38,277 bases of DNA, taken from an uncultured Gimesia sp. (lineage in GTDB: Bacteria; Planctomycetota; Planctomycetia; Planctomycetales; Planctomycetaceae). The first letter of the stretch is position 1; every line of letters starts with the position of its first letter. Shown here in pieces: positions 15,828 to 30,505 of this stretch. A program made the translations under genes and the position numbers. Below the pieces are notes generated by a model. The model was not told the origin of the DNA, searched no databases, and saw only the letters and a list, made by a program, of their open reading frames with translations. The DNA lies in assembly GCF_937910335.1 (NCBI RefSeq), contig NZ_CALEMX010000473.1:1-38277 (forward strand), in the 5' to 3' direction.

Positions 15828-17972
15828 TTATTTAGCAGTACTGGCCTGGGCTTCATTAAACTTCTTTGCAAATTCGATTTCGGCCTGCCAGCGTTTAAGA
15901 TTGTTTTGTGCTGCAGCCAATGCACTTGCTGCAGCATTGGCTGCATTTTGAGAAGCAGTGGCTTTGTCAGTCGCAGGCTTCACAGTTTTTTGGAGTGCAA
16001 CCACCTTGGCTTTGGTTGCATTGATTGCATCTGTCGTTGGCTTTACCTGAGGTGTGAGTTGCGTAATCTTCAGTTGATTTGCTTTGACAGCCGCCTGATG
16101 AGCCACCAGATTCTTCTGCTCGGCCGCTTTGGCTGCTACTCGTTTATCGATCGCAGTTTTCAGTTTTGCAGCTGCTTCAGCTAACTCTTTATCACCGGCC
16201 ACTTTTTTACTGATGGCATCCGCTTTGGCATGTGCTTCGATGATGGCTGGCAAGGTCACACCAATGGCGGCAATCAGTTTTGTTGAATTTTCCGCACTGC
16301 CTTGAGCGGCAGTAAATGCTTTTTTGGATGCAGCAAGATTGGCATTGATGCCGTTCAATTTGTTTTGCAGATCAGTCTGTTGTTTTTGAGTGGCGGCGAT
16401 AGCGGCGTTAATATTAGCAACTGCTGTCTGATCAACTTTAACTGCAGCCACGAGTTTTTGATGATTTGCCTGTGTTGCCTGTAGACTGGCGGTTGCAGCT
16501 GTCAGACGCTGAGACAACGGTAAGGGATTCGCAGTTAATTCACCAACATCTTTGCCGTCGGCAGCATTCCAGACTTTAATTTTCCCTGTCCAGTCGCCGG
16601 CAATCACGCGGTTGGTTTCATCACAGATAGTGACACTTCCCGCAATATCTGTAAACGCGGGTAACGCTCTCAATTGTTTTCCTGCCTGATCCCAAATTTT
16701 CGTGACACGATCACGACCACAAGTGACAATTCGGCCATCGCGGGCAAATTCGATACTTGAAGTACCGGGATTATGTGCATTCCAGGATTTGATGTTTCCA
16801 CCATTTTCAAGTTCCCAGAGTTTGACCGATTGGTCATCACAGCTGGTGGCGACAATGTTGGAATCGGATCGCCAGGAAATTCCTGTGATGCCTTTTTTGT
16901 GTCCTTTCAGTGTGAGGTACTCGCTACCTGAGGCTGCTTCCCAAACAAAGGCGCCACCACTACGGTCACCAGAACAAAGCAAAACAGAATCGGGACTGAA
17001 AGCCAGTGAAGTCATCCAGTCTGTATGTTTGCGAATTTCATACGCAAGCTTACCATCACTTGTGGAGTAAACACGGATTACTTTGCTGGGACTACCTAAT
17101 GCGATAAAACGCTGGTCTGAACTAATGTCGGCACAAAGAACCGAATCCAGTTCATCGCCGACAGCAAACAGGCGTTTGGCAGTTCGGACATCCCATACGA
17201 CTACTCGGCCACTGGCGGCAGCATGACCTCCACCTGCCAATAAAAGACTACCATTGCGGCTAAATTTCAATACCTGGGCAACACCTTCCGGGAAGGGGAG
17301 TACGCCCAGTAATTCGAGTGTTTTGGTGTTGTAAAGTAGTATCTGTTTCTGACCTGCTACGGCTGCCAGAGGAGACCAGGGGTTTGTAGCTAAGGCAGTA
17401 ACTGCTGTTCCCAATGTAGAATGAACTACAGGCTCCAAGCTTAAACGTGGAGGCATGGGAGGAGGCCCTTGAGGTTTGCCTGAGGATGCTCCTTTGAGGG
17501 CAAAATCAAATTTAGGTTTCTTAATGACAATTTTACTGCCTGAGTTTTCAGGGGCACCACCATCAATCCACTGTTTGATTAACGCAATTTGATTAGCAGG
17601 CAATTTGTCAGATTTTGGTGGCATGAATGGTTCAGATTCATGAGTGACCAGCATATAGAGGTAACTGCTATCGGAGTCTCCGGCTTCGATCGAATCTCCA
17701 GCAGCACCACCCTGCATCAAGCCTGTGTAGTTCGTCAGATCCAGGCCAGATTGCTTTTTGTTGGTATTGTGACAGGCGAAACATTTTGCGCGGAAAATGG
17801 GCTTAATGTGTTCGTCGTAAGTGATTTTTACTTTCTTTGTGTCTGCCGGTTTTTTGTCTGCAGCAATTAACGCTGTTGACATCAAAGAGACCACCAAACC
17901 AGCAACTACCAGTGTTTTGCAGGTTTGATGACACCAGTTATCGGAGAATACGTTTTTCATAGTCATAACCAT
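15828..17972 (-). CDS. Exported planctomycete cytochrome c domain fused to WD40 repeats and an Ala-rich coiled coil
   Basis: A 714-residue exported protein. An N-terminal hydrophobic segment (about 20-38) acts as signal peptide or anchor. A planctomycete-type cytochrome c domain follows with one haem motif C64-F-A-C67-H68 and a distal Met candidate in PFMPPKSDKL. Residues of about 180-470 form a WD40 propeller with repeated SLAFSPDS...GS...VWD-type blades. The last 230 residues or so are Ala/Lys/Gln-rich and predicted as long coiled coil. It is the last gene of the leftward cluster and is followed by a strong terminator. The stacking of redox, scaffold and coiled-coil modules suggests a surface or periplasmic complex component. 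The redox partner is unknown. The start ATG at 17972 is retained; ATGs at 17966 and 17960 are equally possible. Confidence 0.9.
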   Translation of the reverse strand: MVMTMKNVFSDNWCHQTCKTLVVAGLVVSLMSTALIAADKKPADTKKVKITYDEHIKPIFRAKCFACHNTNKKQSGLDLTNYTGLMQGGAAGDSIEAGDSDSSYLYMLVTHESEPFMPPKSDKLPANQIALIKQWIDGGAPENSGSKIVIKKPKFDFALKGASSGKPQGPPPMPPRLSLEPVVHSTLGTAVTALATNPWSPLAAVAGQKQILLYNTKTLELLGVLPFPEGVAQVLKFSRNGSLLLAGGGHAAASGRVVVWDVRTAKRLFAVGDELDSVLCADISSDQRFIALGSPSKVIRVYSTSDGKLAYEIRKHTDWMTSLAFSPDSVLLCSGDRSGGAFVWEAASGSEYLTLKGHKKGITGISWRSDSNIVATSCDDQSVKLWELENGGNIKSWNAHNPGTSSIEFARDGRIVTCGRDRVTKIWDQAGKQLRALPAFTDIAGSVTICDETNRVIAGDWTGKIKVWNAADGKDVGELTANPLPLSQRLTAATASLQATQANHQKLVAAVKVDQTAVANINAAIAATQKQQTDLQNKLNGINANLAASKKAFTAAQGSAENSTKLIAAIGVTLPAIIEAHAKADAISKKVAGDKELAEAAAKLKTAIDKRVAAKAAEQKNLVAHQAAVKANQLKITQLTPQVKPTTDAINATKAKVVALQKTVKPATDKATASQNAANAAASALAAAQNNLKRWQAEIEFAKKFNEAQASTAK

Positions 17973-18033
17973 ATTAAAAGCGGGATTCTTGTGAAGTTCC
18001 CCAAAGGTGATAAATCGTCAGATGACTTATTAT

Positions 18034-20676
18034 TTAATGATTAAAGATGAATTCTCTTGAGTTCAATAAGGACCAGAATACATCATTCAAAGTGTTGGTT
18101 TGATCTTTCTTGTTTTCATCCAAGACCTGAACTAACGATGAATATTCTTTGTCTGTCGGTTTACGCGAGAGGCAGGAAATATACATTTCGTCAACCACTT
18201 CAAGCGGTTTCTTTCCCGCTTTGATTCTGTCAGCAACAAACTTTCCTCGTGTGATTTTACTGTTGACGGTATCGCCATTCAGTAAATGCAATGCCTGTGA
18301 AAGGCTGGGTTCCATCCGAACTTCGCAGGAACAAACGGTATCGCGTTTTGCTCGACCAAATGTAGTCAGGAAGTAGGTTGAAGTATTACCATCTGCAATC
18401 TGTACAGCACGAGCACCCAGGGGCAGTCCACGAAACTTATTAGCAGAATTCGTCACTTGACTGATACAGTCCAGCAACACTTCAGCCCGCATACGTCGAG
18501 GTTGAGCGTGTGAGAAATTCGTTAGATCTTTTTCGTTTGTTTTGTTTGTTTGAGTCGAGAGTTGATAGGTTCGAGAAGTACAGATATCTCGGACCAGTTT
18601 CTTGAAGTCATAATTATATTCAGTAAAGCGTTTAGAAAGCTCAGTCAACAATTCCGGGTTTACAGGAGGATTACTGACTCGGACGTCATCGACCTCGTTA
18701 ATAATACCCTTTCCAAAAAAGTGAGCCCAGACAATATTACTCAGGTTAGATGCAAAGTAAGGGTTTTCATTAGAGGCCAGCCATTGTGAGAGTAATACGC
18801 GACGATCTTTTCCGCGGGTATCGGGTTCGGCACCACCCAGAAATTTCGGTTTCATCACGCGTTTATCAACCAGGTGTTGAACTTCTCCACTGCCACGGTT
18901 GTAAATAATAGATTCACGCGGATCTTCACTTCCTTTGCGACCAATCTGTGAGAAGAAAGCAGCGAAACTGTAGTAATCATTCATCGTCCAGCGGTCAAAT
19001 GGATGATTATGGCATTGAGCACATTGAATACGCATACCCATAAAGACCTGAGCTACATTTTCTGAAACTTTTAAAGTGTCTCGTTCATTTTCGTAATAGT
19101 TAGTCGCCGCATTAGCAAATGTACCACCGGTAGAGCCGAGGAGTTCCTGAATCATCTTGTCAATGGGTACATTGGAAGCAATTCGTTCCTGTAACCAGTT
19201 GTAATACAGTAAGGCTGATTTATAACTGATGCGGTTATTGACCGTTCTGATCTGTAGCAGTTCGGACCATTTCATGACCCACATCTCTACAAATTCTTTA
19301 CGATTCAGCAGTTTATCAACAAGCTTATCTCGTTTTTTGGGATCTTTATCGGCGGCAAACTGATTGAACTCTTCTATCGAAGGCAGGATACCACAGATAT
19401 CAAGACTGGCGCGACGTAAAAATTCAGCATCGGTACAGAGTGGAGACGGAATCACTCGCAATTTTTTCAGTTTATTGTGAATGAGCGTGTCGACATAATT
19501 TGATTCAGGAGTGTTTGGCCATGTAAAGTTGAGACCTTTCGGCAAAACAACAAAGTGTGACCCAACAGTATGTGTGTCGAATCGTGCCATGATGAATGCT
19601 TCACCACGGTTACTGGCTGTAATCAAACCGTTCTTTGTAATCGTGGCTGAGTTGTCATTGTTTGATGAGAATGCGGCTAGAGAAGTCACATCTCTGGTAG
19701 TTCCATCTGAATATGTCGCTACGGCAGATACCTGTTGTTTAGTACCTTTTCCATCCAGGACCCCACCTTTCGGGTAAATATCTACTTTGGTAACGGTGGG
19801 GATTACACCTGTATCGTAAGGTGCCCCGGCTTGTAACCAGCGGAGTGTTGCGGTGTAATGTTCCGAATCTTTTTCGTAGAGTTTACCTCCGGTATGAGGT
19901 ACTGCTCCGGTAGATTTTTCGATCAGAAGACTTTCCTGAGGCAAACTCAAATTGACACGGCGTCCACTCAGTTCGCGAGTTAGGCGGAAATGATCCCCTT
20001 TCGGGTCGAATCCGAAAAGTGAGAGACGAAAGCCATCTTTTCCACTCGCGGCTCCGTGACAACTACCGGTATTACAGCCAGCACGCATGAAAGTAGGCAT
20101 TACATCCAGCGTAAAACTGATTGGACGCTCTTCTTTTGCTTTGACAACTTTTGCGTGCAATTTAATATTTGCACCACCAAAACTGGCGATTAAATCTGTT
20201 TCTCCATCACTGGCTGGATACACAATATTTTTGTCTAAACGAACAATGCCAGCTGCCGCAGGTTTTAGTAGTAACTGACTAGTAACATCCTGTGTGAGGC
20301 CGTTGTCGTAGACAGCCTGCGCGATGATGGTCTGTCGATCGCGGCTGGTGGTGAGTTCAATTAGTTCTGGATAAACATTCAGCTTTACCATTTTAGGAGC
20401 TGGCTTAGGTGCCACTGGTTTCGCTGTAGCTGTTTTAGCCGGTACAGGTTTGGCCGGTACAGGTTTGGCCGGTACAGGTTTGGCCGGTACAGGTTTAGCC
20501 GGTACAGGTTTAGCCGGTGCAGGTTTAGCCGGTGCAGGTTTAGCCGGTGCAGGTTTAGCCGGTGCAGGTTTGGCCGGTGCAGGTTTGGCCTTATCTGCTG
20601 CCAAGCTGAGAGAGAATCCACTGAATAAGAAAGTCAGTGCGACAAAGCTGCTAAGTAATGTTTGGTGACGCAACAT
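18034..20676 (-). CDS. Exported DUF1549/DUF1553 protein with bacterial Ig-like domains and a Pro-Ala-Lys repeat linker
   Basis: An 880-residue exported protein of a large planctomycete family of unknown biochemical function. A signal peptide (to about residue 27) is followed by ten pentapeptide units (KPAPA five times, then KPVPA five times), a BIG2-like Ig domain, a segment with C201-x4-C206-H207 in GCNTGSCHG, a second Ig-like domain (about 295-380), DUF1549 (about 390-600) with a haem-type motif C552-A-Q-C555-H556 followed by NHPFDRW, and DUF1553 (about 640-880). The start ATG at 20676 has AAAGG 9 nt upstream. The TTG at 20700 is rejected because it only adds MTKKRSLI before the signal peptide. 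It is third in the cluster. Haem attachment at either motif is likely but not proven. Confidence 0.92.
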   Translation of the reverse strand: MLRHQTLLSSFVALTFLFSGFSLSLAADKAKPAPAKPAPAKPAPAKPAPAKPAPAKPVPAKPVPAKPVPAKPVPAKPVPAKTATAKPVAPKPAPKMVKLNVYPELIELTTSRDRQTIIAQAVYDNGLTQDVTSQLLLKPAAAGIVRLDKNIVYPASDGETDLIASFGGANIKLHAKVVKAKEERPISFTLDVMPTFMRAGCNTGSCHGAASGKDGFRLSLFGFDPKGDHFRLTRELSGRRVNLSLPQESLLIEKSTGAVPHTGGKLYEKDSEHYTATLRWLQAGAPYDTGVIPTVTKVDIYPKGGVLDGKGTKQQVSAVATYSDGTTRDVTSLAAFSSNNDNSATITKNGLITASNRGEAFIMARFDTHTVGSHFVVLPKGLNFTWPNTPESNYVDTLIHNKLKKLRVIPSPLCTDAEFLRRASLDICGILPSIEEFNQFAADKDPKKRDKLVDKLLNRKEFVEMWVMKWSELLQIRTVNNRISYKSALLYYNWLQERIASNVPIDKMIQELLGSTGGTFANAATNYYENERDTLKVSENVAQVFMGMRIQCAQCHNHPFDRWTMNDYYSFAAFFSQIGRKGSEDPRESIIYNRGSGEVQHLVDKRVMKPKFLGGAEPDTRGKDRRVLLSQWLASNENPYFASNLSNIVWAHFFGKGIINEVDDVRVSNPPVNPELLTELSKRFTEYNYDFKKLVRDICTSRTYQLSTQTNKTNEKDLTNFSHAQPRRMRAEVLLDCISQVTNSANKFRGLPLGARAVQIADGNTSTYFLTTFGRAKRDTVCSCEVRMEPSLSQALHLLNGDTVNSKITRGKFVADRIKAGKKPLEVVDEMYISCLSRKPTDKEYSSLVQVLDENKKDQTNTLNDVFWSLLNSREFIFNH
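20434..20589 (-). repeat. 15-bp tandem repeat array encoding ten Pro-Ala-Lys pentapeptides
   Basis: About ten head-to-tail 15-bp units lie inside the DUF1549 gene, just after the signal peptide. The unit reads gccggtRcaggttt plus a or g. On the minus strand five KPAPA units (gca form) precede five KPVPA units (gta form), with a silent third-position difference also clustered. The array is in frame, so copy-number change would lengthen or shorten the linker without a frameshift. Confidence 0.93.
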
Positions 20677-20767
20677 AATCAAAGACCTTTTTTTCGTCAA
20701 CAGAATTTAGTTGATGAAGGTGATATAAAATTTGAATTCAATTAATCAGTAATAAAGCGAACTAATA

Positions 20768-23227
20768 TTATTTTGAACCGGATTCCAAACGCTTCTGGGC
20801 ATCCAGACGTAGTTGTTCCAGGCGTGTCAGCCGTTTAGGAGGCGCTGCTTTTTTAGGCGCCGCTTTTTTCACAACAGCGGCAGGCTTAGGTTTGGCAGGA
20901 GCATCCTTCTTAGGTGGGATTGGCTTATCGATACGAAGTTCTGTTCGACCAGTTGTGTGCACAACCGTTTCGCCATTCATGGGGATTTCCACCTGACAGA
21001 ACAGACTCTTGTGCCGTCCCTGTGGTGAAGTGGGGTCAGTTTTAACTTTAAATACAAGCTCCTTACTCTCTTTGTTGAAGGAGATATCAGTGGTTGTGAC
21101 TTTAGGAGGTAAACCTACGAGTTTGATTTTTGCATTCCCTTCAAACGGGTTCTTCATACTGACTTTGCAGATGATTTCAGTTTCTTTTCCTTGCTCGACA
21201 GCCGTACGAGACAATGCAAGATCAACAAACGAGTCTGTGATTTCTAATGGTGCTAACTGTGAAGAAACCCAGGCTGGGCCACTCACATCGGCAGAACCAA
21301 TCACAAAGACTTTCCATTTTTTGATTTCTGCATTGCCGTTGGCATTCAGAGGGTACAAAACTTCGTTTTGACCTTTGGGGATTGTGACAATACTGGCCGC
21401 TCCTAGTCCTGGTGGACGGAAGGGGAACTGCAAAGTGATTGCTTTATCAAATCCTTTTTTCCGAGTCACAACAACCTTCAGTTGCATAGAGCCGTTGCGT
21501 GTTAGAGGTGCCTTAGGCTCTACGATATCGAGTTTGAAGGGGAGTTCTTCCACGACAGCGACTGGAATCTGAGCGACATCTTTCATCCAAAGTAATTGAT
21601 TGTTACGAACTCGTACCAAGTCAGCGCGGTTTCTGAACACGCCTTCAATTTTTTGCTTCGGATCTGCGTGCCGTCCTTTAAGTTCGATCAGAGTGCCAGA
21701 TACCGGAGCATCAGCGGCAGCTTCAAACACGACGGGCATTGTCGTTAAATTGGCGGCCATTGGTTCGGCAACCATTTTAACTCCTTTAGGAATATTCTGA
21801 GAATCAAGAACAATTTCTCCGCCGAAGTTTTTCCGTACGACGCTGACCACTGCAGCAAAGCGGTTTCCACGGGCAACGACAATGCGCTGTCGTTCTTGAG
21901 AATAACGAGCATTTCTGGGAATACCCAGATCCAATGATGCAGAGACTGGCTGCATTTCGACGCGGTATACAAAATCGGCTCCACCACGGGCGAGATGGTC
22001 TGTGATTGAAAGATAATAGTCACCATCTGCGGGAAATTTGTAGCGGAAGTAACTGTCAGGGCCACGGGAATCATCGTTTGCGGCAAGTCTTCCAAATTTT
22101 GCATTATAAAGTGCCATGACCGGATCGAGAGAGGATCGGATACGGCGTGCGAAACATTCGATTTCCAGGGTCTGGCCTTTCTTTCCCTGAAACTTGAAGT
22201 AGTCAATATCGCCCGCTGTTTCAATGATCCCATTAAAAGCGTTAGGAAGCGCTGCAGCAGAGGCTAGCTTGAATTCGTTGTTGGGTTCGGCTTCGAATGA
22301 ATTACCATGAGGGAAGAGGCGGAATACATTACCAGAAGGAGCACTCCCTCCGGCGTCAGCAGCAAAGAGTCGAAACTCATCATCAGGTTTCGCAGGCAAC
22401 TGAAATTCTTGAGCAAGATTTGCGACCGTATTTCCTTTGAAGGTCACTTTCTGTTTTGTCCCTAACTGTCCACCGGCAGGATAAATGGCTGTCGGACGAG
22501 GATAAGTTCCCACGTGCAGGCGGTAGAAGGCCGCGCCATTTCCACCATAGGAGCTGTCGCGTACCAAAATAGTATATTTACCATCTGCAGGAGCGATCAC
22601 GGAAACTGCGGTGTCGTTTCTCAGCAGAGGTAGATCATCGATTGCTTTTAATTCAAAACGTTTTTCGTCAAGAATCGCAACATATGGGTCAAAGATAGTT
22701 GTCGCTAAACGAACGCCTTCAATCTCGGCTGAAATGCGTTGTCCTTTTTTCGCCGTGATCACGAAATGATCAACATCTTCATTCGTAACAATGCCAGTGA
22801 CTGTCTGGTTGAGTGTAATCGACTGGGGTGTTTCAAATTCGCTGTTAGGCTCTTTTTCTGCAACTTCTGGAAATTGACCGACCCAGAATGTTTTATAATC
22901 GGAGACGCCACTTTTCGTACGAACCTGGAATGTATGCTCTCCAAGGTCACAGCCTGGCAAAATCTTTACAATGGCTGTACAGACATTGACATTTTTGGGA
23001 TCACCTTTGATTTCTTTGAATTCAAATCCTTTCTTATACGAAAGGATTTCAACCGCATCTGATAATCGGGCGCCATAGAACGTGAGAGCGATTTCCGTTC
23101 CGCGCTGTCCACCTCGTGGCCTAACATAATTTAAAGTCGGGCTTGCCGCTTCGACTAGATCCACGAGCAATAAGCTAAATGCGATTGCAAAAATTCCGGT
23201 GCAGACAGAGCTGTACTTCCGCAGCAT
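20768..23227 (-). CDS. Exported pre-peptidase C-terminal (PPC) and TIG-like domain protein
   Basis: An 819-residue exported protein of beta-sandwich modules. A signal peptide (to about residue 27) leads into a TIG/IPT-like segment (YVRPRGGQRGTEIALTF, about 34-50). A PPC domain follows (EKEPNSEFETPQSI..., about 125-240), then a second TIG-like segment (YPAGGQLGTKQKVTFKG), a second PPC domain (EAEPNNEF, about 315-420), several Ig-like folds, and a basic Lys/Pro/Ala tail. PPC domains usually assist secretion or bind surfaces and are not catalytic. No protease motif is visible. The ATG at 23227 is used, preceded by AAGGGGGG at good spacing; the GTG one codon earlier is less likely. It is second in the cluster, between DUF1501 and DUF1549/1553. 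It probably acts as a binding or structural partner. Confidence 0.88.
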   Translation of the reverse strand: MLRKYSSVCTGIFAIAFSLLLVDLVEAASPTLNYVRPRGGQRGTEIALTFYGARLSDAVEILSYKKGFEFKEIKGDPKNVNVCTAIVKILPGCDLGEHTFQVRTKSGVSDYKTFWVGQFPEVAEKEPNSEFETPQSITLNQTVTGIVTNEDVDHFVITAKKGQRISAEIEGVRLATTIFDPYVAILDEKRFELKAIDDLPLLRNDTAVSVIAPADGKYTILVRDSSYGGNGAAFYRLHVGTYPRPTAIYPAGGQLGTKQKVTFKGNTVANLAQEFQLPAKPDDEFRLFAADAGGSAPSGNVFRLFPHGNSFEAEPNNEFKLASAAALPNAFNGIIETAGDIDYFKFQGKKGQTLEIECFARRIRSSLDPVMALYNAKFGRLAANDDSRGPDSYFRYKFPADGDYYLSITDHLARGGADFVYRVEMQPVSASLDLGIPRNARYSQERQRIVVARGNRFAAVVSVVRKNFGGEIVLDSQNIPKGVKMVAEPMAANLTTMPVVFEAAADAPVSGTLIELKGRHADPKQKIEGVFRNRADLVRVRNNQLLWMKDVAQIPVAVVEELPFKLDIVEPKAPLTRNGSMQLKVVVTRKKGFDKAITLQFPFRPPGLGAASIVTIPKGQNEVLYPLNANGNAEIKKWKVFVIGSADVSGPAWVSSQLAPLEITDSFVDLALSRTAVEQGKETEIICKVSMKNPFEGNAKIKLVGLPPKVTTTDISFNKESKELVFKVKTDPTSPQGRHKSLFCQVEIPMNGETVVHTTGRTELRIDKPIPPKKDAPAKPKPAAVVKKAAPKKAAPPKRLTRLEQLRLDAQKRLESGSK

Positions 23228-23289
23228 CACGGTTTCCCCCCTTGGAAAGTAGATGTTCGAGTATCAGTTTTCATTCGCTTGAATCAAAA

Positions 23290-23322
23290 TGTTAACACGC
23301 GAGATTTTCTCACGTGTTAACA
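23290..23322 (-). terminator. Long intercistronic hairpin (possible attenuator or processing site)
   Basis: tgttaacacg (23290-23299) and cgtgttaaca (23313-23322) form a perfect 10-bp stem. One mismatch inside it is followed by a further 4-bp gaga/tctc stem with a 3-nt loop. It lies between the DUF1501 and PPC genes. On the minus strand the following sequence is attttgattc, a weak U tract, so partial termination or 3'-end protection is plausible. Confidence 0.6.
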
Positions 23323-23353
23323 AATCAAATTCAATAAATATATTTCTGGTGGA

Positions 23354-24652
23354 TCAGACAAGGAGATCCTTAATCACTTTTCCACCATTGACAATTTCAA
23401 TTGGACGGTCGCCAGGTGCCATCAATTCTTTATCAGATACGATTCCCAGGCAATGGTAAATTGTAGTTGCCCAGTCCATTACATTAAGTGGGTTATCTTC
23501 AGGCTCACTCGCAATAGCATCGGAAGCACCGTAGATGTTTCCACCTTTCACTCCACCACCAGCCATGACGACACTGAAAACTTTCGGCCAGTGATCGCGT
23601 CCTGCAGTGGCATTGATTTTCGGAGTTCGTCCGAATTCACTGCAGATACAGACCAATGTACTCTTTAAGAGTCCACGCTGGCTCAGATCTGTAATTAACG
23701 TTGAGAAGGCCTGGTCAAATGAAGGCACATTATTTGTGATTCCGGTCTGAATCCGGTCGTGCATATCCCAACCACCATAGGTCATTGTGATAAAGCGGGC
23801 ACCTGCTTCAACGAGTCTTCGAGAAAGTAGCATACGAGCGCCTGCTGAATTACGACCATAAGCGTCCCGGACTTTGGCATCTTCTTTATTCAGGTCGAAT
23901 GCTTCCTGAGAGGCTTTCGAAGAGACCATGTCGTAAGCTTGTTTATAGAATGTATCAACAGCGTCCAGTGAATCCGATTTTTCTTTGGAGACAAAGTGAT
24001 CGTTGACTGCTCCCAGAAGGGAACGGCGACGGGTGAATCGTTTGGTATCAACACCGCCGGGCAGATTCAGGTCACGGACTTTGAAGCCGTTGGAAGCAGG
24101 ATCTGATCCTACACTGAACGGGGCAAATGAAGAACTAAGATATCCCGTACCGGCAAATTCGTTTGGTTGATTAGGGATGCATACATATTGTGGCATGCTG
24201 TTCTTGGGGCCGAATTCATGTGTGACTACACTTCCCATGCTGGGAAACTTCAAAGCAGGACTCGGTCGATATCCGGTGAACATATTATGTGTCCCACGTT
24301 CGTGAGCGGCTTCACCATGTGACATCGAACGGCAGATGGTCAGCTTGTCCATTATTTGTGCCGTCTTGACCAGCTTTTCATTCAAGCGAACGCCCGAGAC
24401 ATTCGTGTCGATCGAATTCATAGGACCTCGGTACTCAACTGGAGCATAAGGTTTAGGATCCCATGTTTCCTGATGTGCAGCACCACCTGGCAGATAGATA
24501 AAGATGACTGATTTCGCAGTACCTTCTTTGCTCTCATAATGTTTGAGATCTGCCTGTGCACTTTTCATCTGAAGGAACTGAGGCAACGTCAGCCCGATTC
24601 CGCCTGCAAAGCCAACATGTAGAAAATCGCGACGCGATTGATCCAAGTTCAT
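23354..24652 (-). CDS. DUF1501 protein with Tat signal (alkaline phosphatase/sulfatase-like fold)
   Basis: A 432-residue member of the DUF1501 family, which is distantly related to the sulfatase/alkaline phosphatase fold and is very abundant in planctomycetes, usually next to DUF1549/1553 genes. The N-terminus MNLDQSRRDFLHVG carries a twin-arginine motif (R7-R8), so the folded protein is exported by Tat. Family landmarks include FIYLPGGAAHQETWDPKP, ERGTHNMFTGYRPSP, TYGGWDMHD and a late SEFGRTPKIN and GRDHWP region, where His/Asp residues are likely metal ligands. The ATG at 24652 has GGAG 8 nt upstream, and the longer frame to 24739 lacks family sequence. It is the first gene of the leftward cluster. 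Substrate unknown. Confidence 0.93.
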   Translation of the reverse strand: MNLDQSRRDFLHVGFAGGIGLTLPQFLQMKSAQADLKHYESKEGTAKSVIFIYLPGGAAHQETWDPKPYAPVEYRGPMNSIDTNVSGVRLNEKLVKTAQIMDKLTICRSMSHGEAAHERGTHNMFTGYRPSPALKFPSMGSVVTHEFGPKNSMPQYVCIPNQPNEFAGTGYLSSSFAPFSVGSDPASNGFKVRDLNLPGGVDTKRFTRRRSLLGAVNDHFVSKEKSDSLDAVDTFYKQAYDMVSSKASQEAFDLNKEDAKVRDAYGRNSAGARMLLSRRLVEAGARFITMTYGGWDMHDRIQTGITNNVPSFDQAFSTLITDLSQRGLLKSTLVCICSEFGRTPKINATAGRDHWPKVFSVVMAGGGVKGGNIYGASDAIASEPEDNPLNVMDWATTIYHCLGIVSDKELMAPGDRPIEIVNGGKVIKDLLV

Positions 24653-24906
24653 AATGAAATCTCCATTTTCGGTCGTGGGGATAATTGTGTTTGGTTGGTG
24701 GCTCTCAAAGGCCAGAGGTTTAACACTTGCTATTTGCAAAGAGCACTACTTCTTCTTGGGTTGGAATATCGTCGATTTACTCGGCGGATGGCTCCGAAAT
24801 TCACTGGTAACTTCAGAGTTTAGTTTTAGATGATTCTGGTAATGTTTCTAATTCTATCACATTAATCCAGTTGGGGAAGGAATCTATTAAAATCACCTAA
24901 GCGTGT

Positions 24907-25077: not shown

Positions 25078-26994
25078 CTATTTTTCAACGAGCCCGTTTT
25101 GCTCCGAAATTTGATATAACCGGTTGGATTTGAGTTGATCCCAGCTAGAAACCGTTCCCGAAGGCCAGGTAATAGAAACCGCTTGAATGATACCTTCGTT
25201 CCCTAGTCCAAAGGTAACTGGCAGCTCAGTTTGTGACAGATAGCTGCGGGTAGGCATGACCAGCCGATTTTGAATGCCAGTTTGCGTTTCGATCTGAATT
25301 TGAGCACCCAATGCATGCTGACTGGAAACAGGGGAAATCCCTTTATCACTTTGATTCGGATCACTGGTGAGTTGGAAACGAACCCAATGATGCCCCGTCT
25401 CCTGATCGTTTCGTAAGAGCCTCGGTTTATTTCCGGTTGTCATAATCAACAGATCCAGATCACCATCATGATCAATATCGCCGAAGCTGGCCCCGCGGCC
25501 GACCAGCGGTCGTTTAAAATCGGAACCAATCTCTGATTCTCCTAAGGACAAAAATTCAGTCGAATATTGCGAACCACAGTTCCAGAACAGTTGAGGCGAT
25601 TGTTTGTAGTGCTGCCGTTCCTGAACGATGTTGATATCTTCTTCAAGATGACCATTCGCTGAGAACAGATCAAGACGACCATCGAGGTCGGCATCAAAAA
25701 AGAATACGCCGAATGTGAGAGCCAGTCGGGTTTGCGGACCTAGTCCATTCGAAACGGCTTCGTCAACAAATTGCATCTCTTTGCCGGGTGAGGTGTAGAG
25801 GGCTGTCATTTCATTGGCAAAGTTGCCAATGGCGATGCCTAATGTTCCATTGTTGCGGAAGGGGGCAATATCAATGCCCATTGCGCCGCGTGCATTGCCG
25901 TCCATGTCAAATGCGACTCCGGAAATAGCCGCCACTTCTGTGAATGTTCCATTTTTTTGATTGTGAAATAGAAAGTTCTGCACTGTGTCATTGGTGATAA
26001 AGATGTCAAGAAATCCATCTTGATCAAAATCATAGAAATTCAAGCCCAGTGATTTTGCCAGGGGCACTCCCGTCGCGGATGTAATAATTTTCAGACCGGC
26101 TTGCTCAGAGATTTCGGTAAAGCGGCCATTGCCCTGGTTCTGATAGAGCAGGGGAGGGACGCCATTAAAGTTTTGTGGACGACCGTAAGCGCGGATACCA
26201 CCTTTCAGAGTGAAGTTCTGCGCACGGTCAAATTCGCGCGACCATTCCACATAGTTGCAGACCAACAGGTCCAGATCCCCATCGCGGTCATAGTCAAACC
26301 AGCCACAACTGGTACTCCAAAGATTTTGAAAGCCACCCATTCCCGCCTGCATTGTAACATCGATAAATCGATTACCTTCGTTTTTGAACAAGCGGTTGGT
26401 ACCCAATGCAGATATAAACAGATCAATGCGACCATCGTTATCATAGTCACCACAGGCAACTCCCATGCCGTAGAGTGAAACGTTGAGACCCATTTCGAGT
26501 GTGACATCTTTAAATTTTCCTGATCCATCATTCTGGTACAAAGCCAATGAGGAAGCACGCTCTGTTTTCTGTGGCTGACTCCAGGGCCAGTCCTGCGCGC
26601 CCACCAGCAACAAATCCTGGTCACCGTCATTATCGTAATCGAAGAATGCAGTGCCTCCCGCCATCGTTTCGGGAAGTAACTTTTCTCCGGCAGCACCGTT
26701 ATTGTGAACAAAATCAATGCCAGCCGCTTTTGTGATATCAGTAAAGGGGATTTTGGGAAGACTGATTTCTTCTACCACACGCTGTTTCGGCAGACTTAGC
26801 GGAGTTTCCTTGACTATTTCAGCAGGCTGGTTGAGCTGAGTCATTACATAGATTGTTCCAGCAACCATTGCAAAGACCAAAATGATCGCCAAGGAATACC
26901 AGAAGGCACGACCGATGAATTCATCATTTTGCTCGGATTCCTCTTCCAGATTGTGCAGTTCTGAATGGAGTTCGTCATGATTCTGATTGGCCAT
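25078..26994 (-). CDS. CRTAC1-type protein: FG-GAP/VCBS repeats with ASPIC/UnbV C-terminus
   Basis: A 638-residue membrane-anchored extracytoplasmic protein. A cytosolic acidic N-terminus is followed by one membrane helix (about 30-51), then a beta-propeller of FG-GAP/VCBS repeats with at least six Ca-binding loops of the DxDxDG type (DYDNDGDQD, DYDNDGRID, DYDRDGDLD, DFDQDGFLD, DADLDGRLD, DIDHDGDLD). An ASPIC/UnbV domain at the end has SITWPSG. Such proteins are common in planctomycetes and are thought to mediate calcium-dependent binding on the cell surface. AGGA lies 7 nt before the ATG. It follows the pentahaem cytochrome gene after 68 bp on the same strand, so the two are probably co-transcribed. 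Ligand unknown. Confidence 0.93.
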   Translation of the reverse strand: MANQNHDELHSELHNLEEESEQNDEFIGRAFWYSLAIILVFAMVAGTIYVMTQLNQPAEIVKETPLSLPKQRVVEEISLPKIPFTDITKAAGIDFVHNNGAAGEKLLPETMAGGTAFFDYDNDGDQDLLLVGAQDWPWSQPQKTERASSLALYQNDGSGKFKDVTLEMGLNVSLYGMGVACGDYDNDGRIDLFISALGTNRLFKNEGNRFIDVTMQAGMGGFQNLWSTSCGWFDYDRDGDLDLLVCNYVEWSREFDRAQNFTLKGGIRAYGRPQNFNGVPPLLYQNQGNGRFTEISEQAGLKIITSATGVPLAKSLGLNFYDFDQDGFLDIFITNDTVQNFLFHNQKNGTFTEVAAISGVAFDMDGNARGAMGIDIAPFRNNGTLGIAIGNFANEMTALYTSPGKEMQFVDEAVSNGLGPQTRLALTFGVFFFDADLDGRLDLFSANGHLEEDINIVQERQHYKQSPQLFWNCGSQYSTEFLSLGESEIGSDFKRPLVGRGASFGDIDHDGDLDLLIMTTGNKPRLLRNDQETGHHWVRFQLTSDPNQSDKGISPVSSQHALGAQIQIETQTGIQNRLVMPTRSYLSQTELPVTFGLGNEGIIQAVSITWPSGTVSSWDQLKSNRLYQISEQNGLVEK

Positions 26995-27030
26995 TTGATG
27001 GTCCTCGTTATGTTTGATTCGAATTCCCTG

Positions 27031-27060
27031 CTCTCTTTTAGAGAGAAGAATCGCGATTCT
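27031..27060. repeat. Two adjacent inverted repeats between the cytochrome and CRTAC1 genes
   Basis: agaatcgcgattct (27047-27060) is a perfect 14-bp palindrome beginning 2 bp after the cytochrome stop codon. Immediately beside it ctctct/agagag (27031-27045) forms a 6-bp stem with a 3-nt loop. They lie in the 68-bp intercistronic gap and could be a processing or regulatory site. Confidence 0.6.
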
Positions 27061-27062
27061 AT

Positions 27063-29876
27063 CTATGGTTTGACGGTTCTATTGAGTGAATAAATCACTG
27101 GATGTTCGGCTGCATGATTGGCTGCCGGATATTTTTCGCGGGCTTTTCGCTCGGATAAACCTCTCGCCGTGTCATCAATTTTATACATCTGATGCAGTTT
27201 TCGGTGTTGTTGTGCGAGTTCGGTTTGTTCCAACTGGTCATAAATCAAGGACAGGTTGTAATGAGCCGTCACATTTTCCGGGTCTAAGGCTAATGTCTTT
27301 TGAAATTGTTCAACTGCCTGATTCAAAATCTGGTTTCGCTGCGCTCGATTTTCTTTCGTGCGATACCGTTTGGCTTGATCAAACAGATTTTGTCCCAAGT
27401 CATTAATCACGACGTAATCTTTGCTGAAGTCAAATCCGCGGACGATGCGTTCTTCCGTTTGATCTTCCAGAACACTACGGAAATTTCGTTCTGCTACATC
27501 CAGATGCCCCAATTGCTGATTTACTTTGCCGCTCAGCCAGGCGAGAGTCCAGGCAGGGGCAGGGGGATCTGTAAATGCAGCCGCTTTTTTCAGAACATTA
27601 ACGGCGTCCAATAGTCGCCCTTCGCGGAAATACACACGTGCCAGATTTAAGGAACCATCGTAACGCCCCAGTTGATCGACGTGTTGAAATGCTTCCGCAG
27701 CCTGTCGTAATTCCGACTTGCCTTTCAGGAACAGTCCGATGCCATAATCGTTCCAGCGTTCCCATACTGGGATTTCTATCTTTTTGTTGATGATTTTTGC
27801 AGTGACACCTTCCACGGGAAACGTAATCGTATCGGCGGCGATTGTGGTGATCGGTAATGTGTTGATATAGGGGGAGCCTTTTTTCTTCCCGGAGAGTCCC
27901 TGTCCTCTGGCTTCCAGCGAAGACGCGACAAACTTCATATAATGTGTATCGAACTTGCGGTACTGCAATTTTGCTTCAACGGTTACAGGGGCCTTTAAAT
28001 CTTTGGGCAGATTAAGTTCATAATGAATGGTTTGCCCTGCACCGGGGGGAATCTGATTGTTATACAGGGCCACAAATATATCTTGTGCATTGCGACGTGA
28101 AATGCGATTACCGTTTCGATCAATCACAAAGGCATTGATGAAATGTGACCACGGGTCCACGGTACCATCATTTTCCCTGGATCCACTTCGGCCGATGATT
28201 CGGTCGCCACTTTTGACCGTAACATCTAACCAGATTTCATTTGAGTCAGCTGTCCCCTGTGTGAAATGATGGCCGACCTTTAATGTACGAAGCACAGTTT
28301 CCAACAGATATTTATTTCCCGGTTTCAATACAGGGACCTCAGGCCGTAAGGGAGCGATCAATTTACCATCAATGCTGCCTGCTTCTCTGATTCCAAAGAA
28401 ATCGACGCGGAGATTGTCTTTGAGAAATTCCTGATGAGCGGCAACCGTCTTCTCGTCATTTCGTAGCGCTGCTATGCCAGTGTTCGCTGACGGGAATAAA
28501 TGATTATGGACACTAAGCTCTTTGGCATTGTCAAAGTACTTGGCGCCAAAATCATCCGAGGCTTTAACAGGCAGATGACATTTATTGCAATTGTTTTCAG
28601 CATGTGGTGGATAATAAAAGCTGCGCGCTCCATGACCCGAAACTCCACTCAATAAAAATGAGTCGTAATGATTTTGTGCGCGAAGGAACTTGTACTGATT
28701 GAGTTCTTCAGGTAAATGAACCTTATGACAGGAACCGCAAAATTCTGTTGATTTGTGTAAATCTTTTAAAAACGTTTTTTTGTGAAACGCAGGTTTGGCT
28801 TTTACCAGTTGATTATTCACCCATTGCAAAAACGGGTTGTCACTGTAAGCAAATGGATAATGAATGGGTTCTTCAATCGTGTAGTCACTGTTGCCTCGCA
28901 CACTATTAATATGTGTAATGGCGTGGCAGGAAGTGCAGGTGATTCCCACCTGGGCAGTTGCATGGTTGATGTCATCAAAACCAGGATCATCAAACGCGCC
29001 GCTGAAGAAAGGGACAGGATCGTGACAACCCGCACAAAAACGGGATGCCTGTAGATTTCCATCGCGTTCGAAAGAAACTTTGCGTGTTTCTCTGACCGAC
29101 GCCAGATAAGCAGGGTTATTAAAAGAGCTAATATGATGCACGCTGTTTTTCCAGTCAGCGTGAGTATCGGGATGGCATTTCTGGCAATAGGCGTCCATCA
29201 TTAATGATTTTGCGGGAATAAAATCACCAGTCGCAGTGCGTGCCAATGAAGGCGAAAAATATTTCTCGCCCGAGGCAGGGCCAACTACATTCCAATTGCG
29301 AGGGTCAGCGGAATGAAACATGAGCATTCCCACGACCATTACCGTAATCAAAGCCAGATAAGAAATTCCAACCTTCCAGCGAATTTTGGGGCCTACCAGA
29401 CGATGCAGCCAGTAGAGCCAGATTGCACTGAGAGGAGTGAGAACGTGGCACCAGTAAGTAATGGAACGAGCCGTCGGATTTTTTAGGTCGAAGGAACCGA
29501 TACGTAATAAAAGAACTCCGGAAATCAACAGGAGGCAGGAAACAATAAACAGCGCATATCCAACACGTACTGCGCGGCGGTTGAGTCGATTCTTCGTGTT
29601 AGAAATATGAATGATGCCAAACAGGATAAACGGAGCCAGTAATAACAGTCCCAGGATCAGATGCCCCAGGAACATATATTGATAAAACCAGTTTTCCAGC
29701 GTATCCCCACTTAACTTGTCATAAACGGTGATACTGACAAGATAGATGGAATTGGCGCCTAATAAGGCGACGAGAAACAAAACAAGATATAAAACCTTGC
29801 GCAATTTCGGACCGACTGCACGACGAACAGTGCGCCGTGGTTGAGATTCCACTACAAAAGAATCAGATGAGGTCAT
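27063..29876 (-). CDS. Membrane pentahaem c-type cytochrome with TPR repeats
   Basis: A 937-residue integral membrane redox protein. The N-terminal part has about five helices. Helix 2 carries H72 and H90, and helix 4 carries H144 and H158 (14 apart), a pattern that suggests b-haem ligation. A periplasmic multihaem domain follows with five CxxCH motifs at about 231, 281, 314, 380 and 430 (CQKCH, CAGCH, CTSCH, CGSCH, CNKCH). Next is a beta-rich domain (about 500-700), and at least three tetratricopeptide repeats near the C-terminus (final one about 865-905). The ATG at 29876 is used; the upstream frame begins with TTG and adds 17 residues. It resembles cytochrome c554/NrfB-like multihaem proteins in haem spacing only. 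Probable role: electron transfer between the quinone pool or inner membrane and an exported partner. It is co-directional with the CRTAC1 gene. Confidence 0.92.
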   Translation of the reverse strand: MTSSDSFVVESQPRRTVRRAVGPKLRKVLYLVLFLVALLGANSIYLVSITVYDKLSGDTLENWFYQYMFLGHLILGLLLLAPFILFGIIHISNTKNRLNRRAVRVGYALFIVSCLLLISGVLLLRIGSFDLKNPTARSITYWCHVLTPLSAIWLYWLHRLVGPKIRWKVGISYLALITVMVVGMLMFHSADPRNWNVVGPASGEKYFSPSLARTATGDFIPAKSLMMDAYCQKCHPDTHADWKNSVHHISSFNNPAYLASVRETRKVSFERDGNLQASRFCAGCHDPVPFFSGAFDDPGFDDINHATAQVGITCTSCHAITHINSVRGNSDYTIEEPIHYPFAYSDNPFLQWVNNQLVKAKPAFHKKTFLKDLHKSTEFCGSCHKVHLPEELNQYKFLRAQNHYDSFLLSGVSGHGARSFYYPPHAENNCNKCHLPVKASDDFGAKYFDNAKELSVHNHLFPSANTGIAALRNDEKTVAAHQEFLKDNLRVDFFGIREAGSIDGKLIAPLRPEVPVLKPGNKYLLETVLRTLKVGHHFTQGTADSNEIWLDVTVKSGDRIIGRSGSRENDGTVDPWSHFINAFVIDRNGNRISRRNAQDIFVALYNNQIPPGAGQTIHYELNLPKDLKAPVTVEAKLQYRKFDTHYMKFVASSLEARGQGLSGKKKGSPYINTLPITTIAADTITFPVEGVTAKIINKKIEIPVWERWNDYGIGLFLKGKSELRQAAEAFQHVDQLGRYDGSLNLARVYFREGRLLDAVNVLKKAAAFTDPPAPAWTLAWLSGKVNQQLGHLDVAERNFRSVLEDQTEERIVRGFDFSKDYVVINDLGQNLFDQAKRYRTKENRAQRNQILNQAVEQFQKTLALDPENVTAHYNLSLIYDQLEQTELAQQHRKLHQMYKIDDTARGLSERKAREKYPAANHAAEHPVIYSLNRTVKP

Positions 29877-30025: not shown

Positions 30026-30439
30026 TCAGGAGCCAGAGAATTGCGGAGGCCGCTCGATGCGTTGTCGATAGTCTCCCGACAGAATTAAAGTGCCGGAATT
30101 CATTGAATCCGAAATCTGTATTCGACGGGGATGCGTTTCCATAAAGAGAGAGCAGGCAGGTTTTAAAGATATGATGACTATCATCGGGGACTCTGGAGAC
30201 GGATCAGGTCGATGGTTTTGGCATCGGGGACCAGAACAGGGCAGGTTTTGTTGAGTTCGAGTTTGATCTGATGGAATCATTGAGTCTGAGAAAAATTCAG
30301 GCTGTTGTTCTGTATGAGAGAGATAATCACCACAGGTGGCATACGCAGTTTTTTGAATCAATGTTAAATTCAATACGCACACCGCCCCCGCTGCAAGCAG
30401 GAATCGCATAACGATAAATTGATACGGTTGGTGAGACAT
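30026..30439 (-). CDS. Small exported Cys-containing protein of unknown function
   Basis: A 138-residue protein I do not recognise. After MSHQPYQFIV a hydrophobic segment (MRFLLAAGAVCVLNLTL) ends in KTAYA, a good signal peptidase I site, leaving a mature protein that begins TCGDYLSH. A second Cys pair, CSGPRC, comes some 37 residues later and is followed by a Pro-rich stretch. Mature size is about 105 residues. The ATG at 30439 is used; the frame also opens at TTG 30466, which is less likely, and M11 (30409) is possible. A good promoter (30506-30534) lies upstream, so it is transcribed alone or into the cytochrome gene. The export signal and conserved-looking Cys pattern argue that it is real. 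Confidence 0.65.
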   Translation of the reverse strand: MSHQPYQFIVMRFLLAAGAVCVLNLTLIQKTAYATCGDYLSHTEQQPEFFSDSMIPSDQTRTQQNLPCSGPRCQNHRPDPSPESPMIVIISLKPACSLFMETHPRRIQISDSMNSGTLILSGDYRQRIERPPQFSGS

Positions 30440-30505
30440 AAAAATGAGTTCTGAATGAAGCTGCAAAAAACATCCGAATGAGCGAGTTAATGGAATGAAA
30501 TGCCC

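Follow-up and report, generated by a model that had tools for sequence, protein, structure and literature searches.

What is the work of a protein that joins membrane helices, five c-type haem motifs and TPRs in a single chain, and what ties it to the CRTAC1-type gene that follows it? The question is raised by a gene pair on contig NZ_CALEMX010000473.1 of an uncultured Gimesia sp. (Planctomycetota; RefSeq assembly GCF_937910335.1). We analyzed the 38,277 nucleotides from position 1 of this contig as one stretch, hereafter called the window. A sequence-only reading of this DNA had suggested that a b-haem module feeds the c-haems, and that the pair could be a quinol-linked electron outlet toward surface proteins, next to a DUF1501 cluster.

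Architecture of the gene pair

All features of the pair lie on the minus strand (positions in the window; basis in brackets):

27063..29876, minus: pentahaem membrane cytochrome P0001, 937 aa (ORF, motifs, Pfam)
29307..29819, minus: five-helix membrane module, residues 20-190, DUF4405-like, predicted dihaem b (model, structural matches, hhalign)
29661..29663, minus: H72, predicted ligand of the outer (periplasmic-side) b-haem (kept in 111/111)
29607..29609, minus: H90, predicted ligand of the inner b-haem (kept in 110/111)
29445..29447, minus: H144, predicted ligand of the outer b-haem (kept in 111/111)
29403..29405, minus: H158, predicted ligand of the inner b-haem (kept in 110/111)
28419..29240, minus: pentahaem c domain, residues 213-486, c552/PHC fold, limits approximate (5ze8 match and profile)
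29172..29186, minus: CQKCH, c-haem I (sequence motif)
29022..29036, minus: CAGCH, c-haem II, guessed candidate for an open sixth site (sequence motif; site assignment inferred)
28923..28937, minus: CTSCH, c-haem III (sequence motif)
28725..28739, minus: CGSCH, c-haem IV (sequence motif)
28575..28589, minus: CNKCH, c-haem V (sequence motif)
27807..28418, minus: immunoglobulin-like beta domain with conserved GH536, residues 487-690, limits approximate (model strands; inside the 5ze8 match)
27102..27779, minus: TPR superhelix, residues 700-925 (Pfam, model)
26995..27062, minus: intergenic gap of 68 bp, cytochrome to CRTAC1 (ORF ends)
25078..26994, minus: CRTAC1 partner P0002, 638 aa, with N-terminal hydrophobic segment, FG-GAP repeats and UnbV_ASPIC (Pfam)

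The length of 937 aa is counted from an ATG, and a TTG further upstream would add 17 aa. The five CxxCH motifs begin at residues 231, 281, 314, 380 and 430 and are the only ones in the protein, for which Pfam returns TPR_11 (6.9e-8) and Cytochrome_C554 (1.1e-6). For the neighbouring gene it returns FG-GAP_3 (PF13517, 7.1e-34) and UnbV_ASPIC (PF07593, 6.1e-17), so that the neighbour carries both hallmarks of CRTAC1/ASPIC-UnbV proteins, the FG-GAP repeats and UnbV_ASPIC. The gene layout described by the sequence-only reading is thus confirmed: five membrane helices, five CxxCH motifs and TPRs in one protein (model, motif scan, Pfam), membrane histidines H72/H90 and H144/H158 with one pair per helix (sequence and model), and an FG-GAP/ASPIC-UnbV gene 68 bp downstream (ORF 25078-26994, Pfam). 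Elsewhere the two genes can be closer still: taking the first possible starts, 21 of 92 linked pairs overlap by exactly 4 bases.

Homologues and their distribution

Relatives of any kind, weak ones included, were found in 70 of 101 genomes of the family and 127 of 392 genomes of the phylum (E ≤ 1e-10); named close relatives include ones from a Planctomycetota MAG (96% identity) and from Gimesia MAGs (85-88%). We aligned 116 non-redundant sequences, which comprise group A (76, including the window protein), group B (20), group C (15) and group D (5). Group D proteins are about 500 aa long and weakly similar, and counts of the four membrane histidines (n = 111) are taken over groups A-C. In the alignment used for the model, identity to the window protein is 28-35% for group B and 24-28% for group C. 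TPR families match 10 of 10 group B proteins scanned and 0 of 10 in group C, and DUF7139 matches 18 of 104 cytochrome relatives (best 9e-5). The cytochrome tree (support 0.86-1.0) and the CRTAC1 tree (0.84-1.0) each separate clades A, B and C as exact splits. Because A and C copies coexist in some genomes (e.g. G116), the groups are paralogous. One cytochrome looks broken (G094:C8:108951-111792), its match falling into five pieces, two of them with internal stops; the CRTAC1 orthologue of that genome keeps an open reading frame.

A predicted dihaem b module in the membrane

The model of the full-length cytochrome (mean pLDDT 92.6; membrane module alone 93.5) places helices at residues 23-56, 63-94, 100-122, 134-161 and 167-188. 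Homologues lacking the four membrane histidines would speak against a b-haem module in these helices. H72 and H144 are invariant in the 111 homologues of groups A-C, and 110 of the 111 keep all four, down to 24% identity; in the alignment, the five group D sequences have none of them. The spacing within each pair, 18 residues for H72/H90 and 14 for H144/H158, puts both members on one face of their helix. In the model, H72 and H144 lie 9 and 10 residues into their helices and H90 and H158 lie 27 and 24 residues in, and since the helices bearing H72 and H144 should run parallel with one helix between them, the histidine pairs would stand at two matched levels. Both spacings together arose in 204 of 20,000 shuffles of residues 20-195. 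On their own, the spacings are weaker evidence against chance than the conservation among homologues.

By structure, the top 23 VIA-align rows for the membrane module are all of dihaem-b type by title (b6f, bc1, superoxide oxidase, HyaC, FdnI, NADPH oxidases and designed dihaem bundles), with Z-scores of 8.1-10.5, which lie under the value of about 13 below which, by the tool's own warning, a match may reflect a mere common helical arrangement; unrelated helical bundles score Z 8.0-8.1. We take all proteins in these 23 rows to bind two b-haems. Foldseek with the module returned no match at E ≤ 0.001 (best E 1.2). As for sequence families, the window protein has no DUF4405 (PF14358) match at E ≤ 0.1. 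Matches at this threshold occur in 17 of 104 relatives (best E 1.6e-5), and four of ten relatives examined in detail match at 17.0-23.6 bits against a cut-off of 26.7. The window family has its four membrane histidines in the spacing of stand-alone DUF4405-type proteins. Conservation of the histidines, fold and DUF4405-like pattern together support a predicted dihaem b domain in front of the c-haems. To this extent the earlier proposal holds.

The pentahaem domain and a possible open haem

All 116 non-redundant homologues (groups A-D) have the Cys and His residues of the five c-haem motifs in aligned positions, so the five sites are not due to chance. The motif of haem I is CX4CH in 14 of the 15 group C members (L100-L114), and that of haem V is longer in two group A members. 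The pentahaem c552 structure 5ze8 matches model residues 221-686 with Z 16.1 (rmsd 3.7, 343/385 residues aligned). A profile search with the haem domain returned pentahaem c552/PHC at E 1.4e-15, along with the multihaem selenoprotein MccSep (6.5e-7), c554 (1e-4) and the archaeal wire 8e5g (5.4e-4). The window protein has the five CxxCH motifs in a c552 fold together with the Ig-like domain that mark pentahaem c552/PHC proteins. With the whole model, Foldseek ranks TPR proteins at the top in the PDB; in the viral library, repeat or TPR-like proteins lead the list.

Candidate distal ligands are His 247, 365 and 459, present in 111 of 111 sequences of groups A-C, and H536, present in 110 with a gap in the remaining one. 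Across these groups four distal histidines are thus conserved for five c-haems, and one c-haem with an open sixth position is possible. Such an open haem is made less likely by group A, in which further histidines are conserved at 97% (374, 403 and 618), since one of these could be the fifth ligand. The available excerpts of PMC11976967 class sPHC and lPHC, from models, as having at least one pentacoordinate haem, and equate the four AvECN haems with sPHC haems I, III, IV and V. Since those four are matched, our guess, by analogy, is that c-haem II would be the open one.

One genus has lost the inner histidine site

The sole exception among the 111 homologues, L136, has Arg at both 90 and 158. 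Two more genomes of its genus have Arg at 90 as well, with His still at 158 in L140 and Ser at 158 in L141 (read from the printed sequence), so that all three genomes have lost H90 and two of them H158. All three keep H72, H144, the five CxxCH motifs and His 247, 365, 459 and 536. With H72, H144 and the c-haem sites intact in three genomes, the H90/H158 site decays independently of the outer site. Read from these sequences, the pattern of loss is what one inner haem at H90/H158 and one outer haem at H72/H144 would predict, and the loss of H90 may be one event in a single lineage. The inner haem site is dispensable in this genus, which counts against our best explanation below. With only its inner site lost, the genus also lends itself as a natural experiment on whether electrons have to traverse the full width of the membrane.

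The CRTAC1 partner is tightly linked to the cytochrome

Among loci with at least 900 bp downstream of the cytochrome, a CRTAC1 gene follows directly in 65 of 73 in group A, 13 of 18 in group B, 14 of 14 in group C and 0 of 5 in group D. In all eight group A exceptions tested, a CRTAC1 orthologue lies on another contig or far off, at 660-789 bits versus at most 283 for the next matches in the same searches. Both proteins occur in 69 of the 101 genomes, the cytochrome alone in one (G072), CRTAC1 alone in two (G005, G078) and neither in 29 (E cut-offs of 1e-10 in the cytochrome search and 1e-100 in the CRTAC1 search, the broken-looking G094 cytochrome being counted as present); Fisher's test of this co-occurrence, with genomes treated as unrelated, gives p = 7.8e-22. 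The identity matrices of cytochrome and CRTAC1 correlate at 0.93 over 87 pairs, a value to which species descent contributes, and for 86 of 87 pairs the closest CRTAC1 sequence comes from the same cytochrome group. Judging from the sequences, CRTAC1 appears to be an obligate partner, tightly tied to the cytochrome. Some of these genomes have up to 15 CRTAC1 matches, and we know of no account of what they use so many CRTAC1 proteins for.

An N-terminal hydrophobic segment is found in 59 of 60 group A partners and looks more like a membrane anchor than a cleaved signal. In group B, an automatic lipobox search was positive for 5 of 13 partners and a Cys stands at one column in 92% of them; these partners are likely lipid-anchored. 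The segment is present in 7 of 14 group C partners, several of whose sequences were clipped by a limit of 620 residues. The CRTAC1 alignment shows no Cys or His conserved across A, B and C; M372 is conserved in each of them, and H97 and H449 in A and B.

Beyond this partner, the neighbourhood varies. In a sample of 86 loci of at least 7 kb, CRTAC1-type ORFs occur in 74 and the next same-strand family in 10, and an opposite-strand ORF cluster in 75 loci presumably represents antisense ORFs over the two genes. Since no same-strand family other than CRTAC1 occurs in more than 10 of 86 loci, a porin cannot be a constant neighbour in this sample. A DUF1501 relative lies about 2.3-2.4 kb downstream in 4 of 86 loci, all of them 88-98% identical to the window, and anywhere in 9 of 86; the DUF1501 cluster that the earlier reading had set beside the pair is therefore rejected as a functional neighbour. 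In the window, positions 15828-24739 (minus) hold a row of PSCyt1-WD40, PSCyt2/PSD1, PPC-domain and DUF1501 proteins. Upstream of the cytochrome, an ORF of 146 aa (30026-30466, minus) is found again at position -1 and in the same orientation in nine loci of group A, and searches with it against Pfam and NCBIfam gave no match worth naming. Architecture, conservation, histidine pattern and gene pairing are established by computation.

Unfused and partial relatives

A plasmid search found matches in 6 of 72,556 records. In Shinella HZN7 and Nitratiruptor YY08-14 the gene order is imelysin, small membrane protein, multihaem cytochrome and FTR1, the small membrane protein being annotated DUF4405 in Shinella and hypothetical in Nitratiruptor. 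Both stand-alone proteins carry exact H-x3-G-x13-H and H-x13-H motifs, the spacing of the window protein; of the two, P0005 exceeds the DUF4405 cut-off, and P0003, which bears the DUF4405 annotation, stays under it. In single hhalign comparisons, the family profile matched the Nitratiruptor protein at E 3.4e-6 (probability 88%, all four histidines aligned) and the Shinella protein at E 7.8e-7 (92%, helices 1-3). We preferred hhalign here, as a joint alignment of the Shinella and Nitratiruptor proteins with the family misplaced the membrane helices, and those columns were set aside. In the same joint alignment both show Phe, not His, at column 365, which is either an alignment shift or a real difference. 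A second Shinella record has the same motifs in the same order. In an Aeromonas record, a haem ORF is followed by an ORF with REGLE/REGFE motifs, which we take to mark it as FTR1-like; on the strand scanned, the four-His signature does not stand directly before the haem ORF.

Because the small membrane protein and the pentahaem cytochrome adjoin as separate genes in these records, the planctomycete cytochrome is most simply read as a fusion of the two. In all four loci (L143, L144, L145 and L146) a pentahaem-type cytochrome lies by an FTR1 or FTR1-like ORF, and three of them also encode the small membrane protein with four histidines. By their sequences, these gene sets are possibly an iron redox system.

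A different partial relative is found on a plasmid of Granulicella tundricola (Acidobacteriota), where a pentahaem-TPR protein (29% identity, E 3e-74) comes directly after a CRTAC1 gene (34%, E 1e-86; both are single comparisons). The match begins in the last membrane helix, so that the b module is missing there; the gene order is reversed relative to the window, and a small cytochrome c follows. Two more CRTAC1 genes and a TPR gene lie close to the Granulicella pair (L142:12176-16896). CRTAC1 is thus kept in group C, where TPRs are absent, and in Granulicella, where the b module is absent. The part common to all is the pentahaem-Ig core, which makes it the probable docking site of CRTAC1.

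A proposed electron conduit and its alternatives

We consider it probable that the pair forms a quinone-linked transmembrane electron conduit, made of b-haems, a c-haem chain and a docked CRTAC1. We infer haem binding, quinone use, direction, an open haem and a physical complex as follows. From our reading of the loop charges, the N-terminus would be cytoplasmic and the C-terminus periplasmic. H72 and H144 would hold an outer b-haem and H90 and H158 an inner one, and electrons would pass between the quinone pool, these b-haems and the periplasmic chain of five c-haems, of which one with an open sixth position would be a candidate reaction site. The pentahaem-Ig core would dock the CRTAC1 propeller, probably membrane-tethered, as an obligate and probably non-redox subunit holding or presenting a periplasmic partner or substrate; the substrate-presenting role is a guess. 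By analogy with CbcL and DUF4405 systems, an outward direction is slightly favoured. Counting against the conduit are the loci without CRTAC1 next door, namely all five of group D (0/5 linked) and 5 of 18 in group B.

Flow could also run inward, the pentahaem domain, with or without CRTAC1, taking electrons from a periplasmic donor, for instance Fe(II) or a reduced S or N compound, and passing them through the b-haems to quinone. This possibility, to which we give a smaller but real weight, draws on the unfused genes between imelysin and FTR1 in Shinella HZN7 and Nitratiruptor YY08-14, on the recurrence of their motif order in the second Shinella record and on the FTR1-like ORF after the Aeromonas cytochrome. 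The fold matches likewise include FdnI/HyaC-type b subunits, which run inward. However, FTR1 was found in 0 of 101 family genomes, so an iron role does not carry over as such, and CRTAC1 is the sole constant neighbour gene. FTR1-linked iron uptake is rejected as a direct function in this family on the same count.

It is unlikely that the pair handles superoxide, peroxide or NO, by quinone-coupled detoxification at a c-haem or by a b part resembling superoxide oxidase. Superoxide oxidase (5oc0) is the second structural row for the membrane module (Z 10.4), but that fold is common to many four-helix dihaem b proteins. The shortfall of one conserved distal histidine for five haems across groups A-C would suit a reactive site, which the other conserved histidines of group A could nevertheless fill.

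Quite unlikely, too, is an outlet to surface or extracellular acceptors, possibly as the root for a PHC/ECN-like wire. The relation of the haem fold to AvECN (8e5g, profile E 5.4e-4) speaks for it; against it stand the anchor-like segment in 59 of 60 group A CRTAC1 partners and the lack of any other same-strand family in more than 10 of 86 loci, and the outlet "toward surface proteins" of the sequence-only reading is not supported.

Replacement of the bc1 complex, which the quinone-linked b/c architecture might suggest, is highly improbable and is rejected, as a search for cytochrome b (PF00033) had a hit in 97 of 101 genomes; among the good genomes all 83 have it, and 63 of these 83 also hold a match to the fused cytochrome. 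Because bc1-type cytochrome b is present in all 83 good genomes, the cytochrome adds a respiratory branch beside bc1. NrfD was found in 60 of the 101 family genomes.

Returning to the conduit, a bolder reading, which we offer only tentatively, is that the two proteins form an obligate respiratory module, so far undescribed and widespread across Planctomycetota, in which a DUF4405-like dihaem b part and a nanowire-related pentahaem part with a catalytic open haem would be joined by a CRTAC1 subunit gating or supplying the periplasmic reaction. If true, this would to our knowledge be the first defined function for any bacterial CRTAC1/ASPIC-UnbV protein. With one CRTAC1 lineage tied to one cytochrome by near one-to-one presence and mirrored clades, the function of the propeller becomes testable.

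Comparison with known systems

In the open-access literature searched, we found no description of this cytochrome and CRTAC1 pair. The pair joins three threads, the DUF4405 membrane cytochromes, the pentahaem c552/ECN nanowire fold and the CRTAC1 proteins, which we did not find joined in that literature.

Of the DUF4405 proteins, one has been shown to bind haem b, according to the available part of PMC11334425. The published DUF4405 is described with six helices and links to flavinylation or ferrosomes; in the window protein, the DUF4405-like part is fused to a fifth helix, a pentahaem domain and TPRs. CRTAC1 has a precedent beside other haem proteins, as excerpts of PMC12758564 describe HZS-like clusters in which a CRTAC1 gene adjoins hydrazine-synthase-like subunit genes; the cytochromes there are different, and those excerpts describe no fused b module.

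The c domain is closest to the PHC family (Thermochromatium tepidum c552, ExtKL, Gsu2801 and the cable-bacteria sPHC and lPHC), whose members have five c-haems and an Ig-like domain, as in the window protein. In the parts of PMC11976967 available, the cable-bacteria members are periplasmic, some with globin domains, and the pentahaem c552/PHC fold is related to AvECN, an archaeal nanowire whose structure is 8E5G according to an excerpt of PMC12954529; the descriptions of PHC proteins in those parts of PMC11976967 mention neither a b-haem membrane module nor CRTAC1.

Single chains that combine a membrane part with a multihaem c domain are known from CbcL/MtoC/MtrH and ImcH (Geobacter and others), proposed quinol oxidases in the portion of PMC6295460 available. 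As described there, CbcL has N-terminal c-haems, mostly six C-terminal helices and three conserved histidines in an HydC/FdnI-like arrangement, and ImcH has three helices and is partly NapC/NirT-like. The window protein shows no match to the NapC/NirT domain (PF03264; ImcH and CymA type) at E ≤ 0.1, and the CbcL/MtoC/MtrH order of N-terminal c-haems before about six C-terminal helices is reversed in it. In contrast to both CbcL and ImcH, it has five helices at the N-terminus, four membrane histidines, a PHC fold and TPRs.
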